From Deltaproteobacteria bacterium (GTDB lineage Bacteria > Myxococcota > JADLHZ01), in assembly GCA_020848545.1 (NCBI GenBank), contig JADLHZ010000072.1, positions 1 through 64,000 of the forward strand: 64,000 nucleotides of DNA, given 5' to 3'. Both the position numbers and the translations under genes were made by a program. Positions 14,609 to 22,006 of this stretch are shown here, in pieces (position 1 is the stretch's first letter; every line of letters starts with the position of its first letter). Under the pieces are notes generated by a model, which was not told the DNA's origin, did not search any database, and saw nothing but the letters and a program-made list of their open reading frames with translations.

Positions 14609-15502
14609 TCAGAAGCGCAGGCCGAGCCGGATCGTGTTCTGAAAGAGCGGGCGGCCGCCGGTGATGAGCCCCACGTCGAATTGATAGAGGAACACGAAGA
14701 TGAAGGTCTGCAGCTCGATGCCGGCGTAGACGCGGTGGTGAAAGTTCCGCGCGAGCGGCGACTCCGGCAAGGTGTAGAGCGAGCCGTTCGGTTGCTCGAG
14801 CGCAATGTTGTCGGTCGTGTTGTCGGGTGTGGCGTCGAGCACCGCCGAGTTCGCGTTCATGAACAAAATTCCGTAGCCGACCATCGGCGTCAGCCGCACC
14901 ATGCCGCCGAGCGCGAAGGTCTTGCTCACCGTCATGTCGAGGTTGACCGTCGTCAGATCGATCTCTTGCGCGTTCAGCAAGCGACCGACGCCGGCCCGCA
15001 CCGCGAAGTTCGGCAAGTACTTGTAGCCCTCGAGGAACACGTAGCGGATGTCGCCGCCGATCATGAACATCGTCGAGTTGAGCAGCCAGTTGATGTGCGC
15101 TTCGAGCTCGAGGCCGAAGGGCAAGCCCTTGCGCACGTGCATGCCGGTGACGGCTTGCGTGCTGCCCGGGAGCGTTCCCAAGCGGCGCTCCTGCTCGGTG
15201 ACGCCGTTCTGCCAATACTCGCTGCCGATGTTCAGGCTGACGAGCGCGACGTCGAAGCTCACGTCGAAGCCGCTCATGCCGAGACCTTGCGCGGGAGCCG
15301 CCGTGCGGGGGCTCAGCGCGAAGCCGATCTCGGCGGTCAACAGGCGAAAACGCTCGCGCGGCGCTTGGTCGCCGTTACGGGTGTAGGCGCCGAGGCCGCG
15401 CAGCTGCACGTCTAGCGGATTGGCGGCTGCGGGGGCAACGAAGGACGCGGTGACGAGCGCCGATGCGAGGACGAGCGGGAAAAATCGGCGAAAAAGCGTC
15501 AC
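14609..15502 (-). CDS. outer-membrane beta-barrel protein
   Basis: A 297-residue exported protein starting at GTG 15502. The signal peptide (FRRFFPLVLASALVTASF) ends near APAAANP. The mature part has alternating hydrophobic strands (for example FDVSFDVALVSLNIG, VRLTPMVGYGILF) and ends LGLRF; the terminal Phe is the classical BAM recognition residue. I recognise no specific family. The gap to tatA downstream is 85 nt and nothing suggests a shared function. Confidence 0.8.
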   Translation of the reverse strand: MTLFRRFFPLVLASALVTASFVAPAAANPLDVQLRGLGAYTRNGDQAPRERFRLLTAEIGFALSPRTAAPAQGLGMSGFDVSFDVALVSLNIGSEYWQNGVTEQERRLGTLPGSTQAVTGMHVRKGLPFGLELEAHINWLLNSTMFMIGGDIRYVFLEGYKYLPNFAVRAGVGRLLNAQEIDLTTVNLDMTVSKTFALGGMVRLTPMVGYGILFMNANSAVLDATPDNTTDNIALEQPNGSLYTLPESPLARNFHHRVYAGIELQTFIFVFLYQFDVGLITGGRPLFQNTIRLGLRF

Positions 15503-15600: not shown

Positions 15601-15713
15601 GGAAAAATATCGGCTGCCGGTGAAATTTTTCGGATTTTTCGGAAAATTTTCGGGTCGGAGGCAAAATTTTTCGAGTTTTGGCGAAATTTTTCGGGTTTTG
15701 GCGAAATTTTTCG
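15601..15713. repeat. six imperfect 20-bp units with phased A/T tracts
   Basis: Units begin at 15601, 15621, 15641, 15661, 15681 and 15701, each a variant of GCGAAATTTTTCGGGTTTTG. The last two share a perfect 19-bp stretch (15675-15693 and 15695-15713). The 20-bp period is close to two helical turns, so the A and T tracts lie on one face and the DNA should be intrinsically curved. This is striking in a genome of otherwise very high GC. Confidence 0.85.
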
Positions 15714-15788
15714 ATCCTTGCTGAAGTCTTTTGCGATTCTCGTGTGCGCCCGCGCGGCGCGAGCGAAGACAGCGCAGCGCGCAGCTGG

Positions 15789-15794
15789 TATGAT
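15789..15794 (+). promoter_or_regulatory. possible -10 box for a leaderless Uma2 transcript
   Basis: TATGAT lies six bases before the proposed GTG start at 15801, so transcription could begin at or next to the start codon, and no Shine-Dalgarno is visible. A convincing -35 element is not evident. This is a positional inference only. Confidence 0.3.
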
Positions 15795-15800
15795 CCGCAC

Positions 15801-16370
15801 GTGCGAGCTCAACGTGCACCGGCGCCCGTCGATTGGAAGCAGTTTCTCCTGCTCGACGAGGACGATCCGCGCGAGCTCATCGACGGCCGCTTGGAGGAGA
15901 CCGAGGTGCCAACGAAGCTACACGAGTGGGTCGTCGGATGCCTCGTCGCCGCGCTCTTCGCCTGGGCCCGCGCGAACAAGGCGGGCACCGTTCTCCCCTC
16001 CGGCTACAAGCTCCGCATCTCTCGCACCCGCGGCGTCATGGCCGACGTCGTCTTCATTCGCCGCGGCCGCGGGCATCTGGCGAAAAACGAAGGCATGGAG
16101 GACGCTGCGCCGGACCTCGTGATCGAGGTGATCTCGCCGAGCTCGCGGCGCCATGATCGCGTGCGCAAGCTTCGCTGGTACGGCGAGCTCGGCGTCCGCG
16201 AGTATTGGATCGTCGATCCGGAGGAGCGGACGCTCGAGCGCCTCATGCTCGACAAGCGCGGCCGTTACGTCGTGAGCGAAGCGCTGAGCGAAGACGACGT
16301 GTTCACGCCGAAGGGGTATGACGGGCTGGTCATTCGCCTCGACGAGCTGTGGGCGATGCCGGAAGAATAG
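15801..16370 (+). CDS. Uma2-family (DUF820) endonuclease-like protein
   Basis: About 189 residues from GTG 15801; an ATG at 15678 would start inside the repeat block and adds an unrelated N-terminus. The protein has the PD-(D/E)XK-like core of Uma2 proteins: RELIDGRLEE near the N-terminus, VMADVVFI, then PDLVIEVISPSS with the conserved Asp and Glu, and the YGELGVREYWIVDP motif. Family members are restriction-like nucleases of unclear biological target, often associated with mobile DNA. Composition matches the host. The preceding A/T-rich block is unusual and may mark an insertion. Confidence 0.85.
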   Translation: MRAQRAPAPVDWKQFLLLDEDDPRELIDGRLEETEVPTKLHEWVVGCLVAALFAWARANKAGTVLPSGYKLRISRTRGVMADVVFIRRGRGHLAKNEGMEDAAPDLVIEVISPSSRRHDRVRKLRWYGELGVREYWIVDPEERTLERLMLDKRGRYVVSEALSEDDVFTPKGYDGLVIRLDELWAMPEE

Positions 16371-16419: not shown

Positions 16420-17607
16420 CTAGCGATCGTCCCGCAGGAAGATCTGCTCGCCCATCGCGAAGAGCCCCTGCAGCGAGTGCACGTCCTCGTCGAGCTCGTA
16501 GACGCCGCAGACCGGCGCATGCACCTCGACTTCGCCCTTCAAGCGCCGCAGCTCCACTTGCTCCGCGGTCACGAGCGCGTTGTGATCAGCGCCGGCTTGC
16601 ATCGCGGCGGCGGCGAGCGCCGGATCGCCGAGCAAAGTCTGCAGCGCCGTCGTGGCGCTCGCATCGACGGCGTCTTCGGGCAGCGCGCGGTGCAAGCGGT
16701 TGACGAGGACGGACAGCGCGCGCAGCCCTTCGTGCAAGAGCTTTCTGTGAAAGAACAGCGCCTCGTCGATCTGCGGCTGCGTCGGCGCGCTGACGACGAC
16801 GAAGCCGAGATCGCGCGACACGAGCAACTGCGCGATCTTGTCCGAGCGATCCTTGAAGCCGAGAAACAAAGGGTAGAACGAGGAGACGAACTCGCCGATC
16901 TCGCGCAGGATATCGACGCCGGACAGGCGGCCGATGGTCTTCATCATGTACGACGAGCCGACGTCGAGCAGGCGGAAGCTGAGCTTGCCGGCGGTGGCGG
17001 TCGACTTCAGCAGCCACTGCAGCGCGTCGTGATCGAGAAAGTCGACGAAGCGGCGCGGCGCGTCGAGGAAGTCGAGCGCGTGGCTCGTCGGCGGCGTGTC
17101 GAGCACGATGAGATCATACGCGTTCGTCTGCAGCACCGTGTAGAGCTTGGCGACCGCCATGTATTCTTGGATGCCAGCGAGCGCCTGCGACATCGATCGG
17201 TAGAGCCGGTTCTGGCGGATGCGCTCGAGATCGCCCGGGTGCGCGGCGTAGTCGGCGACCATGTCGTCGAAGGTCTGCTTCATGTCGAGCATCATGGCGC
17301 TGAGCGATCCGCCGGGCTGGGGCTCGAAGCCGAGCTCCGCGAGCGACACGGCCCGCGCGCTGTTGCCGAACTCTTCGAGCCCGAGCGCGTTGGCGAGGCG
17401 CCGCGCCGGATCGATGGTCAAGACGAGCACGCGCTTTCCGGCGAGCGCCGCGAACAGCCCGAGCGCCGCCGACGTCGTCGTCTTGCCGACCCCGCCCGAG
17501 CCGCACGCGACGACGACGCGCTTGTCGCGCAGGATACGCTTGAACAAGTCGCTCGGCGGCTTGCCAGCGACGAGCGGCGGGACGGTGAACGCCGGGGTGG
17601 TGCTCAC
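16420..17607 (-). CDS. ArsA/Get3-like ATPase, larger subunit (BagB-like)
   Basis: A 395-residue SIMIBI-class ATPase. The P-loop reads CGSGGVGKTTT, so the signature lysine of deviant Walker A proteins (KGGVGKT) is replaced by Ser. Switch I (LTIDPARRLANALG) keeps the hydrolytic Asp, and LIVLDTPPTSHALDFL is the switch II/ATPase motif. Get3/ArsA proteins are dimers that move hydrophobic or anionic cargo; no arsenite-binding Cys set or ars genes are present here, so arsenite export is unlikely. Its ATG overlaps the stop of the smaller paralogue by 4 nt. Shorter-then-longer overlapping genes match the order of the mycobacterial Rv3679/Rv3680 (BagA/BagB) heterodimer. Confidence 0.88.
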   Translation of the reverse strand: MSTTPAFTVPPLVAGKPPSDLFKRILRDKRVVVACGSGGVGKTTTSAALGLFAALAGKRVLVLTIDPARRLANALGLEEFGNSARAVSLAELGFEPQPGGSLSAMMLDMKQTFDDMVADYAAHPGDLERIRQNRLYRSMSQALAGIQEYMAVAKLYTVLQTNAYDLIVLDTPPTSHALDFLDAPRRFVDFLDHDALQWLLKSTATAGKLSFRLLDVGSSYMMKTIGRLSGVDILREIGEFVSSFYPLFLGFKDRSDKIAQLLVSRDLGFVVVSAPTQPQIDEALFFHRKLLHEGLRALSVLVNRLHRALPEDAVDASATTALQTLLGDPALAAAAMQAGADHNALVTAEQVELRRLKGEVEVHAPVCGVYELDEDVHSLQGLFAMGEQIFLRDDR

Positions 17608-18536
17608 AGCTGCGCCTCGAGCTCGGCCGCGAGCGCCATGACGGCCGCCTCGTCGGCGATCGGAACCGCACGCTTGGCGAGCCGGATCGCGCGCTTCAGA
17701 TCCGCGGCTGGGAGGCGCTGCAGGTACTCCTCGCCGAGCTGCCGCCAGTGCTCGCGCGTGGCCACGGTCCTCTCCAAGGCGGCGAAGCGTTTTTGCGTCG
17801 CGCCGTCCGCGCCAGCCAGGCCCGCGTGCAAGGTGGCGACGAGCGCGTCGGGCAGCGGCGGCAAGATGCGATTGATGAAGGTGAGCCCGCGCGTGGCGAG
17901 CCGATGCTGCATCGCCGCGTGCGCGATCTCGATCGCCTCGTTCACCGGCATCTCCTCGGGCACCGTCACGATGTCGAGCTTCGTGCGCTTCGGATCGAGC
18001 AGCATGTCGAGCATGTCACGCGCGCTCTTCTTCAACGGGCCGGTCGGCATCATCTCGTCGAAGACGTGCGGCACGCGCAGCCAGCTGATCAAGTGCCCGG
18101 TGGCCGGCGCATCGACGACGATGAGATCGTACTTCGGCGCGTCGCCTGAGCGCTCGCCCTCATGGAACCACAGCTTGCCGAGCAGCACGAACTCCGAGAG
18201 CGACGGCACCGCGCGCAGAAAGTAGCGGACGATGCGGTTCTCGAACACGGCATTGTAGAGCGCCTTGAACTTGAGCGTCATCAGCGCGTATTCGCGAATG
18301 GCCTCGCTCGGGATCAGCCCGGCCATCCACAGATTTTCGTAGACGAGGCGCGGCTCACCGTCGAGCTTGGGCTTGCCGAGAAAGCGCGTGACGCTCTCCG
18401 GCGGGTTCGTCTCGAGGAAGAGCACGCGCTTGCCACGGCGAGCGGCGACGATCGCGAGGCTCAGCGCGACCAGGCTCTTACCGACGCCGCCCTTGCCGGT
18501 CACGATGCGCACGCGCGTGTCGAATAGCCGCTCCAC
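17604..18536 (-). CDS. ArsA/Get3-like ATPase, smaller subunit (BagA-like)
   Basis: A 310-residue SIMIBI ATPase starting at GTG 18536. The P-loop is canonical for the class, TGKGGVGKSLVALSL, with the signature lysine. The switch I position occupied by Asp in the partner (TIDPARR) is Asn here (ETNPPESV); the equivalent Asp-to-Asn change in Get3 blocks hydrolysis. LIVVDAPATGHLISWL is the switch II-like motif. It therefore has what the larger paralogue lacks and lacks what it has, which suggests an obligate asymmetric heterodimer. It overlaps the partner by 4 nt and lies 13 nt after the DUF1795 gene. Confidence 0.88.
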   Translation of the reverse strand: MERLFDTRVRIVTGKGGVGKSLVALSLAIVAARRGKRVLFLETNPPESVTRFLGKPKLDGEPRLVYENLWMAGLIPSEAIREYALMTLKFKALYNAVFENRIVRYFLRAVPSLSEFVLLGKLWFHEGERSGDAPKYDLIVVDAPATGHLISWLRVPHVFDEMMPTGPLKKSARDMLDMLLDPKRTKLDIVTVPEEMPVNEAIEIAHAAMQHRLATRGLTFINRILPPLPDALVATLHAGLAGADGATQKRFAALERTVATREHWRQLGEEYLQRLPAADLKRAIRLAKRAVPIADEAAVMALAAELEAQL

Positions 18537-18549
18537 GACAACCTGCTCG

Positions 18550-19014
18550 TCAAACGAAGCTGAGGCTCTCGACGACCGCGACGAAGATCTTCTTGTGCGC
18601 GTCGAAGCGCGAGTCGTTCGTGGCGGTGCCGCAGATCACGTAGAACGCGTCGCCGGCGTAGAGGTACGCTTGCCACTGGCGGAGCGCACGCGGCGGCGCG
18701 GTGAAGGCGAACTCCCTCGTCTGCGCGTCTTGGCCGGCGATCTTCACCGTCTCTTTGGCGAGCGTCTTCGTGTCGGGCGCCATCGAGCGCATCACTTCTT
18801 CCTGCGCCGCCGCGAACTCGTCGAGCGACACTTCGCGGGACGTGACCTCAACGCGCTTCATGATCAGGCTCGGCCGCTCCGGCGCTTCGCTCGCGCCTTT
18901 GTGGCGCATGAGATCGAGCGCTTTTTGCTCGGGCCCGAGCAGCGTGACGAGCGTGCCGTCTTCCCAGCCGTCGGGGATGTCCAAGGTGATGTGGTGGAAG
19001 GTCGCGCGGGTCAT
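18550..19014 (-). CDS. DUF1795/DcrB-like protein (possible Eag-type chaperone)
   Basis: A 154-residue soluble protein without a signal peptide. The start ITLDIPDGWEDGT, central SLIMKRVEVTS and SLDEFAAAQEEVM, and C-terminal ending YVICGTATNDSRFDAHKKIF fit the DcrB/DUF1795 fold. Cytoplasmic members called Eag proteins shield hydrophobic segments of type VI secretion effectors; lipoprotein members (DcrB) do other jobs. Lack of a leader and the position directly after a 416-residue protein with a hydrophobic C-terminal segment favour a chaperone role. No type VI genes are in the window. ATG 19014 is the only good start. Confidence 0.7.
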   Translation of the reverse strand: MTRATFHHITLDIPDGWEDGTLVTLLGPEQKALDLMRHKGASEAPERPSLIMKRVEVTSREVSLDEFAAAQEEVMRSMAPDTKTLAKETVKIAGQDAQTREFAFTAPPRALRQWQAYLYAGDAFYVICGTATNDSRFDAHKKIFVAVVESLSFV

Positions 19015-19051
19015 GGGCTGATCACTTAGCAGCGCGCCCGGGGGCCGTCTA

Positions 19052-20302
19052 TCAGTGCGCCGCCTCGCGATTGACGGCGACGCCAGCGCGGTTCAGCACG
19101 GCGAGATCGCTCTTGTCGGTCGCCGCCATCGCCACGAGGCTCGCGCCGGTCGAGACGGTGAAGGCGCCGACGGCGACGATCGCCGCCGCGGGAAGATTGA
19201 TCGTGGCCACGCCCATGCTCGCGACCGCGCTGCCAGCGAGCAACATGGCGCGGAAGTTCTCGCCCTTCGTCAACGAGCCTTCCTGCTTGTCGGCGACGTC
19301 TCTAATCGCCTTGCCGGTCTCGTCGTTGGTCAGGCGGCCCTTGATGCCGTCGACCAGCCTCTTGGCGAGCTTGCTCCAGAAGCCGAAGATCGCTTCGCTG
19401 ACCGAGTTGTCGACGTCGACCGCGCGCAGCACTTCGCCCGAGTCCTTGTACTCGCCGTCGTCCTTGAACTGCGCGCGAAAACCCTTCTTCACGCGCGAGA
19501 TGCCGCCGCTCTCGTTGAGCGCGACGAAGAGCTCGCCCTTGTCGTTCTTCAAGTAGACGCGATCGTAGCCCGTGTCCTTGAAGTCGTCCTCGAGGCCGTC
19601 GAGCAGCGCCTTCGTCTTTTCGGCGTCGCTGAAGTCGAAACCTTCGGGCAGCGGCATCTTGTACACGCCGTGAAAGGGCTTACCGCTGATGTAGACCGGC
19701 CCGTGCTGCACGAGCCCGCCCTTGCCGGTGAACATGAAGAGCTCGATGTTGCGAAACGCCTTCAGATCGAAGTCGCCGGAGACGATCGCGGCCTCGACCT
19801 TCGCGAGGATCGCGGCCTGCGCCGGCGTTGGCGGACCGCCGTGCTCGCGCACGTCGAGCGCGCCGCGCACTTCGTCGACTTCGTGGAGGTTCAGCTGCGC
19901 CTTGCCGCCGCCGATGTTCGCGGCGAGAAACTTCGCCGTCTTCATCGCGCCTTGGTCGTGGATCGTGTCGACGCGCAGCGAGGTGCAGTAAACGCGGTTG
20001 CCGACCTTGGGCTTCGGGCCGTGCAGCGCGGCTTCCAAGTGGTCGAGCGAGGCGCGCACCGTGGCGATCTCTTTGAGCATCAGCGCCGCGAGCGGGCTCT
20101 TTTCGTTCTTGCCGGCTTTGACGAAGGCGTCGTGCTTCTTCAGCAGCTCGCGCGTCTTGTCGAGATCCGCCTTGGTGACGACGCCGTCCTTCTTCTTGCC
20201 CACGTGATCGTCGATGAGCTCGGCGCCGGCGCGCGCTTCGCCGTCCGCGATCTCGGTGGTCGCGACGAAGGGCTTGGGCTTGAAGAGGCCAAAAACAGAC
20301 AT
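19052..20302 (-). CDS. unknown 416-aa protein with hydrophobic C-terminal segment
   Basis: I recognise no family. There is no signal peptide. Residues about 33-56 include an acidic/basic stretch, KKKDGVVTKADLDK, that resembles a degenerate EF-hand loop. The middle (about 100-330) is mixed alpha/beta. Near the C-terminus, about residues 355-400, Ala/Gly/Val-rich sequence (LLAGSAVASMGVA, AAIVAVGAFTVSTGA) could form one or two membrane helices or a glycine-zipper hairpin, followed by about 20 polar residues. This is close to a tail-anchor layout. It is first of a tight set with the DUF1795 protein (37-nt gap) and two Get3-like ATPases (13 nt, then 4-nt overlap), so it is a candidate cargo. Confidence 0.75.
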   Translation of the reverse strand: MSVFGLFKPKPFVATTEIADGEARAGAELIDDHVGKKKDGVVTKADLDKTRELLKKHDAFVKAGKNEKSPLAALMLKEIATVRASLDHLEAALHGPKPKVGNRVYCTSLRVDTIHDQGAMKTAKFLAANIGGGKAQLNLHEVDEVRGALDVREHGGPPTPAQAAILAKVEAAIVSGDFDLKAFRNIELFMFTGKGGLVQHGPVYISGKPFHGVYKMPLPEGFDFSDAEKTKALLDGLEDDFKDTGYDRVYLKNDKGELFVALNESGGISRVKKGFRAQFKDDGEYKDSGEVLRAVDVDNSVSEAIFGFWSKLAKRLVDGIKGRLTNDETGKAIRDVADKQEGSLTKGENFRAMLLAGSAVASMGVATINLPAAAIVAVGAFTVSTGASLVAMAATDKSDLAVLNRAGVAVNREAAH

Positions 20303-20337: not shown

Positions 20338-21195
20338 CTAGCCGGTCACCGCGCGGACGACGACGCTCGCGAGGACCATGCCGAAGACGCCGGTGACGAA
20401 GCTCGAGGTGCCATAAATGACGCGGCGTTCTTCGCACGAGTGCTGGTCGTTCTTGCCGCCGGGGCACACGCAGCGAAAGCCTTCGCCGTTGTCGTAGTGC
20501 AGCTCGATCGGCTCGCGTGGCGGTTCCATTGAATACACCGCCGGGATGTCCCAGCGCGTTTTGTACGGGAAATCGTACTTCTTATAGAGGATGCGGCGGA
20601 TGGCGTCGGCGAAGGGGTCGACCTTGGTCTCGCTGAGGTCGGCGATCTTCACCTGCAAGGGATCCATGCGGCCGGCGGCGCCCATGGCCGAGACGACGCG
20701 GATGCCGTGCGCGCGGGCGTTCGCCAGCAAGTGGCACTTGGCGGTGATGTTGTCGATGCAGTCGACGATGAAGTCCGGCTTCGACGCGAGCAGCGCCTCG
20801 CTCGTGTCCTTGTCGTAGAACTTCGCGATCGGCGTGACGTCGGCCTGCGGGTTGATGAGCTGCGCGCGGTCGGCCAGGATCTGCGCCTTCTGCTTGCCGA
20901 TGGTGCCCTTCATCGCTTGCAGCTGGCGGTTCGTGTTCGTCACGCAGACCTTGTCGAAGTCGACGAGGTCGAGCTTGCCGATGCCGCTGCGCACAAGCGC
21001 TTCGGTCGCGAAGCTGCCGACGCCGCCGAGGCCGACGACCATCACGCGGGTGGCGAACAGGCGCTCCATGCTAGCGTCGCCGACGAGCCGCCCCATGCGA
21101 TCGAAGCGGCGGTGGAGCTTGTACGAGTCCTCGACGTCGGTCGCGATCGGGACCGGCGTGTCGAGCGCTTCAGCGGGGACGACCAAGGGAAACAT
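20338..21195 (-). CDS. tcdA: tRNA threonylcarbamoyladenosine dehydratase (ThiF/E1 family)
   Basis: A 285-residue E1-like enzyme that uses ATP to cyclise t6A37 to ct6A37 in ANN-decoding tRNAs. The nucleotide site MVVGLGGVGSFATEALVRSGIG and the DFDKVCVTNTNRQ strand are intact, as are LINPQ and VDCIDN. The C-terminal part contains Cys residues (RCVCPGG, HSCEERR). The length matches Escherichia coli TcdA. It lies 10 nt upstream of nothing shared except strand; the TatD gene precedes it and the 416-aa gene follows after 36 nt. Confidence 0.92.
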   Translation of the reverse strand: MFPLVVPAEALDTPVPIATDVEDSYKLHRRFDRMGRLVGDASMERLFATRVMVVGLGGVGSFATEALVRSGIGKLDLVDFDKVCVTNTNRQLQAMKGTIGKQKAQILADRAQLINPQADVTPIAKFYDKDTSEALLASKPDFIVDCIDNITAKCHLLANARAHGIRVVSAMGAAGRMDPLQVKIADLSETKVDPFADAIRRILYKKYDFPYKTRWDIPAVYSMEPPREPIELHYDNGEGFRCVCPGGKNDQHSCEERRVIYGTSSFVTGVFGMVLASVVVRAVTG

Positions 21196-21205
21196 CGCTT
21201 TGGCG

Positions 21206-22006
21206 CTATGACTTTGCGGGTACGGTCGTCAATCCAAACAAGCGGAGCGCATTCACGGTCGTGTCGTGGGCGAGCGCTTCTGGCGTGGTGCCGCGGATCT
21301 CGGCGATCGCTTCGACGATCGTCTTCAGGTGGCGCGGTTCATTGCGGCCCGGGCGATGCGGCTCCGGCGTCTGATCCGGCGCGTCGGTCTCGACGAGGAG
21401 GCGATCGATCGGCACTTTGCGAGCGACGGCCGGCGCCTTCACCGCCGTCTTGAAGGTGACGCTGCCGGCGAGCGAGATGTGCAGGCCGAGCGGCAAGTAC
21501 GCGTCGAGCAGCGCTTCACTGCCGCTGTAGCTGTGCACGACGCCGCCGGCTTTCGGCAGGCCGTCTCGGCGCAAGATCTTCAGCGCCTCTTCGTGGGCTT
21601 TCAAGATGTGGAGGATCACCGGGAGATCGTATTCGCGCGCGAGGGCAAGCTGCGCGCGAAAGATGCCCTCCTGCGTGGCGAGCACCGCGCGGCGCTCTTT
21701 CGTGTAGGCGTCGAGGCCGATCTCGCCGATCGCGACGGGCATCGTCAGCGTCGGGTGCGCGAGCTCGGCTGCGAGCGCCGCGACCATCGCTTGGGTGTCG
21801 GTCTCGGCGACGAGCTGTGGGTGCACGCCGTACGAGACGCAGACGTCGGGGTTCTTCTTCGCGATCGCGTCTTCATCGCGCCAGCCGTCGGGCGACACGC
21901 CGGCGAGGAGAAAGCCGGTGACGCCGGCGGCGCGCGCCTGTTCGAGCACGGCCTCGTGATCGCCGATCATTCGGTGATCGTGGAGGTGGCAGTGGCTATC
22001 GAACAT
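21206..22006 (-). CDS. tatD: TatD-family metal-dependent hydrolase/DNase
   Basis: A 266-residue TIM-barrel hydrolase with all metal ligands: DSHCHLH at the N-terminus, GEIGLD, VILH and HSYSGS, and ETDAP. Family members are Mg-dependent 3'-5' DNases/RNases used in DNA repair or nucleic acid turnover. The gene overlaps the preceding small membrane-protein gene by 11 nt and is followed 10 nt later by tcdA, so these are probably co-transcribed. A broader assignment than TatD (for example YcfH or YjjV) cannot be excluded. Confidence 0.92.
   Translation of the reverse strand: MFDSHCHLHDHRMIGDHEAVLEQARAAGVTGFLLAGVSPDGWRDEDAIAKKNPDVCVSYGVHPQLVAETDTQAMVAALAAELAHPTLTMPVAIGEIGLDAYTKERRAVLATQEGIFRAQLALAREYDLPVILHILKAHEEALKILRRDGLPKAGGVVHSYSGSEALLDAYLPLGLHISLAGSVTFKTAVKAPAVARKVPIDRLLVETDAPDQTPEPHRPGRNEPRHLKTIVEAIAEIRGTTPEALAHDTTVNALRLFGLTTVPAKS

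Follow-up and report, generated by a model that had tools for sequence, protein, structure and literature searches.

A probable BagAB-like ATPase heterodimer with a single hydrolytic site beside a putative chaperone and hairpin-protein module in a Myxococcota genome

The stretch of DNA analysed here (the window) comprises 64,000 nucleotides (nt) of contig JADLHZ010000072.1 from a Deltaproteobacteria bacterium of the phylum Myxococcota (assembly GCA_020848545.1), and it carries, on the minus strand, a closely spaced set of four genes that encode two ATPases of the ArsA/Get3 fold, a protein of the DUF1795/DcrB family and a protein of 416 amino acids (aa). From upstream to downstream, these are the gene for the 416-aa protein (19052-20302), a member of a rare family; its partner, the DUF1795 gene (18550-19014; 154 aa; Pfam DcrB, E 5.4e-8), whose product is predicted to adopt an Eag-like fold; the gene for a small, BagA-like ATPase (17604-18536; 310 aa; Pfam ArsA_ATPase, E 8.5e-25); and the gene for a large, BagB-like ATPase (16420-17607; 395 aa; Pfam ArsA_ATPase, E 1.9e-26). 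An earlier description of the locus, made from the letters alone (the sequence-only reading), had given these four open reading frames, with gaps of 37 and 13 nt followed by an overlap of 4 nt between the ATPase genes, and had singled out the catalytic motifs of the two ATPases; both the layout and the motifs were confirmed. The P-loop of the small ATPase, GKGGVGKS (18474-18497, minus strand), has the signature Lys, and an Asn codon stands at the switch I Asp position (ETNPP; 18405-18407, minus strand). In the P-loop of the large ATPase, GSGGVGKT (17479-17502, minus strand), the signature Lys is replaced by Ser and the Walker Lys is kept, and the switch I Asp is present (TIDPA; codon 17410-17412, minus strand).

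Judged by sequence, the two ATPases are a BagA/BagB-like pair and so belong to a known, conserved kind. The best NCBIfam match of the large ATPase is BagB (6.3e-95; 318.4 bits, cut-off 521) and that of the small ATPase is BagA (1.4e-29; 103.6 bits, cut-off 400); because both scores lie below the curated cut-offs, which were set for mycobacterial proteins, we call the pair BagAB-like rather than BagAB itself. The closest solved structure is 6bs3, with the large ATPase matching chain B (6.2e-68) and the small ATPase chain A (8.1e-20). Mycobacterial BagA/BagB (Rv3679/Rv3680; PDB 6bs3, 6bs4 and 6bs5) are likewise two adjacent ATPases of the ArsA/Get3 fold, and in 6bs3 the A chain combines GKGGTGKS with Glu at the switch I position, whereas the B chain combines GAGGVGKT with TIDPA; the A subunit thus has the signature Lys and lacks the switch I Asp, the B subunit shows the opposite, and the window pair matches this arrangement. 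The window differs in the Asn at switch I of its small subunit, in its gene neighbours and in its scores under the cut-offs. With Get3/TRC40 and ArsA the pair shares the P-loop family, the intradimeric Walker A motif and the ArsA_ATPase domain; those proteins are homodimers or fused halves, whereas the window has two genes for unlike subunits, and, unlike in Get3/TRC40, the signature Lys and the switch I Asp never stand together in one window subunit, the small one lacking the Asp and the large one the Lys. Neither window ATPase has in its sequence the CxxC zinc motif that lies at the dimer interface of Get3/TRC40; among the subunits sampled below, two small frames (of 83) and two large ones (of 81) contain a CxxC. 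The same genome holds a second BagAB-like pair (L040, G000:C114:3532-6576; GKGGVGKT/CELGSD and GAGGVGKT/TIDPA), and two small subunits each were also found in genomes G022, G043 and G052.

To place these residues in a wider frame, 195 genomes of the phylum were surveyed with a small-subunit match threshold of E 0.001. Matches occurred in 184 of them, a few being weak (G010, 2.5e-6; G028, 3.6e-4; G087, 9.3e-5), and the large subunit was also present in all 35 stretches fetched around small-subunit matches. Residues were compared in 83 different small subunits (79 genomes) and 81 large partners (77 genomes); left out of the large-subunit count were L115, where a frame shift mixes small and large subunits, and L119, where an ArsA-like gene (40 bits) with both residues intact stands alone. 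With gene order counted by P-loop position, all 81 pairs lie on one strand with the small subunit upstream of the large, the P-loops being 857-1098 nt apart. The signature Lys is present in every small subunit (83/83), the Walker Lys is kept in 79 and replaced by Arg in four, and the switch I Asp is absent from 78. The large subunits have Ser, Pro, Ala or Thr in place of the signature Lys without exception (81/81), and all 81 keep both the Walker Lys and the switch I Asp. Since all 81 adjacent pairs show the complementary pattern, it is not a chance feature of the window. These counts, made at the switch I and P-loop columns of the homologues, support the sequence-only reading in its view of complementary changes in an obligate-looking heterodimer, a pattern already known from 6bs3. 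Its phrase that each subunit lacks what the other retains holds as a description of complementarity but not as mutual rescue, because what is retained comes together at a single composite site.

The nature of this site can be considered in the light of Get3, in which, according to PMC10248533, the switch I Asp (D57) primes the water molecule for the ATP held by the same subunit, and the intradimeric Lys acts across the interface. When the retained residues are placed on this scheme, the large-subunit site is complete and the small-subunit site is incomplete. The residue patterns, together with the solved relative, lead us to infer a heterodimer with one-site hydrolysis, in which the large subunit would contribute its P-loop and switch I Asp to the working site and the small subunit its signature Lys, in trans. 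At the small-subunit site, the partner's Lys is gone, the site's own Asp is usually gone and the Walker Lys is sometimes gone, and this site would bind nucleotide in a structural or regulatory role. As the partner Lys is missing in every pair and the own Asp in most, one site appears to be kept while the other decays. By analogy with Get3, which works with two sites, the dimer would presumably enclose a hydrophobic client and reopen once a single ATP has been hydrolysed. Our data suggest, as the probable reading of the locus, a BagAB-type Get3-like heterodimer with one hydrolytic site and, apart from it, a module made of a chaperone and a hairpin protein.

That the module stands apart is indicated by the distribution of its genes. 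The sequence-only reading had coupled the DUF1795 and 416-aa proteins to the ATPases and had named as refutation a failure of the four genes to stay together in related genomes. That is what was seen: across 82 other loci (short loci with flanks of 1.5 kb), neither the DcrB nor the 416-aa family profile had a match close to the ATPases. Conserved coupling is thus not supported, and a conserved four-gene operon was rejected. The 416-aa family is rare, with five copies in 4 of the 195 genomes, the window's own included, and a DcrB-type gene directly follows the 416-aa gene in three of the five copies, namely in the window, G054 and G050 (three of the four genomes). In G054 the two genes overlap by 4 nt (Pfam DcrB, 2.3e-10); in G050 they are separated by about 130 nt, and the DcrB gene there is missed by Pfam and recovered at 8.4e-7, as the only match among 1059 frames, by a profile built without it. 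G050, which is 93% complete, has no BagA match, and its sole ArsA match spans 35 residues and falls below the Pfam cut-off. G054 and G037 do have BagA matches, on contigs other than those of the 416-aa genes. Because the 416-aa and DcrB genes are adjacent and occur in G050 without a BagA match, they form a module of their own, independent of BagAB, and this two-gene module would lie upstream of the window's ATPases by happenstance.

A rival view joins all four genes in a single targeting system, in which the DUF1795 chaperone would pass the 416-aa hairpin to the ATPase heterodimer for membrane insertion. It draws on how closely the genes lie together on one strand of the window, on the suitability of an Eag-like fold for shielding a hairpin, and on yeast Get3, which handles hairpin proteins according to PMC9123286. 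We consider it quite improbable, given the missing linkage in the 82 other loci, the separate contigs in G054 and G037 and the module of G050. Moreover, equally tight spacing extends upstream to a TcdA-like ThiF-family gene (20338-21195), 35 nt upstream of the 416-aa gene, and to a TatD-family gene (21206-22006) 10 nt beyond it, both on the same strand as the ATPases; since the close-spaced run exceeds four genes, spacing alone does not mark out these four, and their choice is arbitrary. A more specific form of the idea likens the locus to a bacterial counterpart of the handover from Sgt2 to Get3: an Eag-like chaperone acting independently of type VI secretion would capture the hairpin at the C-terminus of the 416-aa protein and pass it to an asymmetric Get3-like heterodimer with one site, which would make one stroke per client. 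In our judgement this is highly improbable. A literature search, whose coverage did not extend to the primary BagAB papers (Hu 2019, Whitaker 2020), found no description of a link between BagAB and DUF1795.

Within the separate module, the DUF1795 protein points to a chaperone function. Its structural model, with a predicted local distance difference test score (pLDDT) of 86, has EagT6 as its best PDB match (E 9e-11; template-modelling score 0.73), followed by DcrB (E 2.9e-7) and SciW (E 4e-7), and a profile of the nine-member DcrB family matches EagT6 at 2.1e-15. The predicted fold is thus shared with DcrB and with EagT6 and SciW, which are chaperones of transmembrane segments, and the window protein keeps three of the four polar EagT6 residues that hold the transmembrane helices of the effector. 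The 416-aa protein shows two hydrophobic segments by hydropathy, residues 352-370 and 372-394 (19121-19249, minus strand), followed by 22 residues, and C-terminal hydrophobic stretches are present in all five family proteins, being weakest in L074. The hydrophobic C-terminus noted in the sequence-only reading is therefore real, but the 416-aa protein is better described by a C-terminal hairpin than by a membrane tail, since two segments, possibly a hairpin, take the place of a single tail anchor; by hydropathy, it lacks the single C-terminal transmembrane segment of a tail-anchored protein. Together, these features suggest, as a hypothesis, that the Eag-like DUF1795 chaperone contacts and shields the C-terminal hydrophobic hairpin of the 416-aa protein, and that it would do so outside type VI secretion.

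No known family could be assigned to the 416-aa protein, as the window member has no Pfam or NCBIfam match and the best Pfam value, 0.039 (DUF4621), came from one of the five members. Its model (pLDDT 65.7) gave no Foldseek match at E 0.001 or better, and in a second structural comparison the best Z was 5.5 over 45 residues, with EF-Tu entries at a Z of about 4 that we do not trust. A search of plasmids and viral contigs, which did not cover other phyla, found no relative of the protein.

The likeness to EagT6 and SciW, chaperones of type VI secretion, together with the three polar contact residues kept by the window protein, might instead indicate that the DUF1795 and 416-aa genes encode the chaperone and effector of a type VI or phage-tail-like secretion system. 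This we regard as very unlikely indeed. In all four genomes with the 416-aa family, the window's own included, there is neither a VipB sheath match nor a Phage_sheath_1 match, and the sole PAAR match in the window's genome is an isolated fragment covering 39 residues of a 49-aa frame (G000:C13:16378-16494). In addition, the five family members have no Pfam PAAR match, or any other beyond E 0.039, and no prePAAR match was seen in the 416-aa partner; the transmembrane domains of prePAAR proteins are N-terminal according to PMC7773334, whereas the hydrophobic part of the 416-aa protein is C-terminal.

Several observations weigh against our reading of a one-site heterodimer beside a separate module. 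For the ATPases, the BagA match of the small subunit is weak (103.6 bits, cut-off 400); the 83 small subunits are the best matches to the window's own, 31 of them from one family (f8), which biases the sample; and the switch I position was taken at a fixed distance from the P-loop. At two loci, L109 (at a contig end) and L118, the small subunit has no detected partner. The sequence-only reading had held that homologues with both residues intact, forming homodimers only, would speak against it; five of the 83 small subunits do keep the Asp as well as the Lys, but the partner of each still lacks the signature Lys. For the module, the window DUF1795 sequence alone has no PDB sequence match at E up to 1, and the polar EagT6 contacts number 0-2 of four in eight other DcrB proteins, with one of four in each of the module counterparts L073 and L074, which makes these contacts weak evidence. 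The hairpin region is not confidently modelled, as residues 299-398 of the 416-aa protein lie below pLDDT 50, and G037 has two 416-aa copies, neither with a DcrB neighbour. Finally, co-transcription of the four window genes is possible.

The gene neighbourhoods of the ATPase pair elsewhere raise a further possibility. In 51 of the 83 loci, drawn from 11 of 27 families, a phasin-like gene is the neighbour of the small-subunit gene, nearly always divergently, as counted with a profile built from 14 of the same loci; these loci include L014-L039 and L051-L079, and an example is L047 (8057-9914), whose phasin-like member matches Pfam Phasin at 2e-5, under the cut-off. A ParA-like gene lies within 3.5 kb upstream in 44 of the 83 loci, and a PhaR-like gene in 43. 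BagAB-like ATPases may thus be connected with inclusions of polymer or lipid. The stronger proposal is that the ATPases are metabolic or inclusion-linked rather than client-targeting, with phasin-like, ParA-like and PhaR-like proteins of such inclusions as partners in much of the phylum; it draws also on the tie of mycobacterial bagAB to glycerol and nitric oxide tolerance (PMC10597346), and it seems to us unlikely. The window has no phasin-like, ParA-like or PhaR-like neighbour, and its genome has no PhaR match, as against nine of nine other genomes tested; 16 of the 27 families lack a phasin-like neighbour; and the neighbour profiles were derived partly from the same loci, adjacency being in any case not function.

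The neighbours of the window pair are of another kind. In a tree, the window small subunit falls into one group (support 99/95) with its counterparts from L011, L012, L013, L043 and L110; a LexA-like gene lies upstream in four of these five loci, and a gene for an outer-membrane-like protein (14609-15502; no Pfam match) is common to the window and three or more of them. This outer-membrane-like family recurs near ATPase pairs, in 15 of 36 neighbourhoods, the window included. Between it and the ATPases, the window carries a plus-strand gene for a Uma2-family putative endonuclease (15678-16370; Pfam 2.1e-32). A scan of genome contigs with the small ATPase returned one locus, L010. At L047 (1128-2591) and six other loci, a few kb from the ATPase pair, there is a protein with an N-terminal hydrophobic stretch, EF-hand-like repeats and a weak match to NolX (4.2e-7); homology of the 416-aa protein to this NolX-like family (cluster 10; Pfam NolX 4.2e-7 for L047) was ruled out by an hhalign probability of 0.8%.

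The phasin-like neighbourhood of these ATPases was unexpected, and the DUF1795 and 416-aa genes suggest that an Eag-like chaperone module may exist where type VI secretion is lacking. For the ATPases themselves, the conservation of one composite ATP site in 81 of 81 pairs, with decay of the other, provides a testable rule, by which the heterodimer should run on a single hydrolytic site. Such a one-site pair lets one ask what role the second ATP plays in Get3-type machines.

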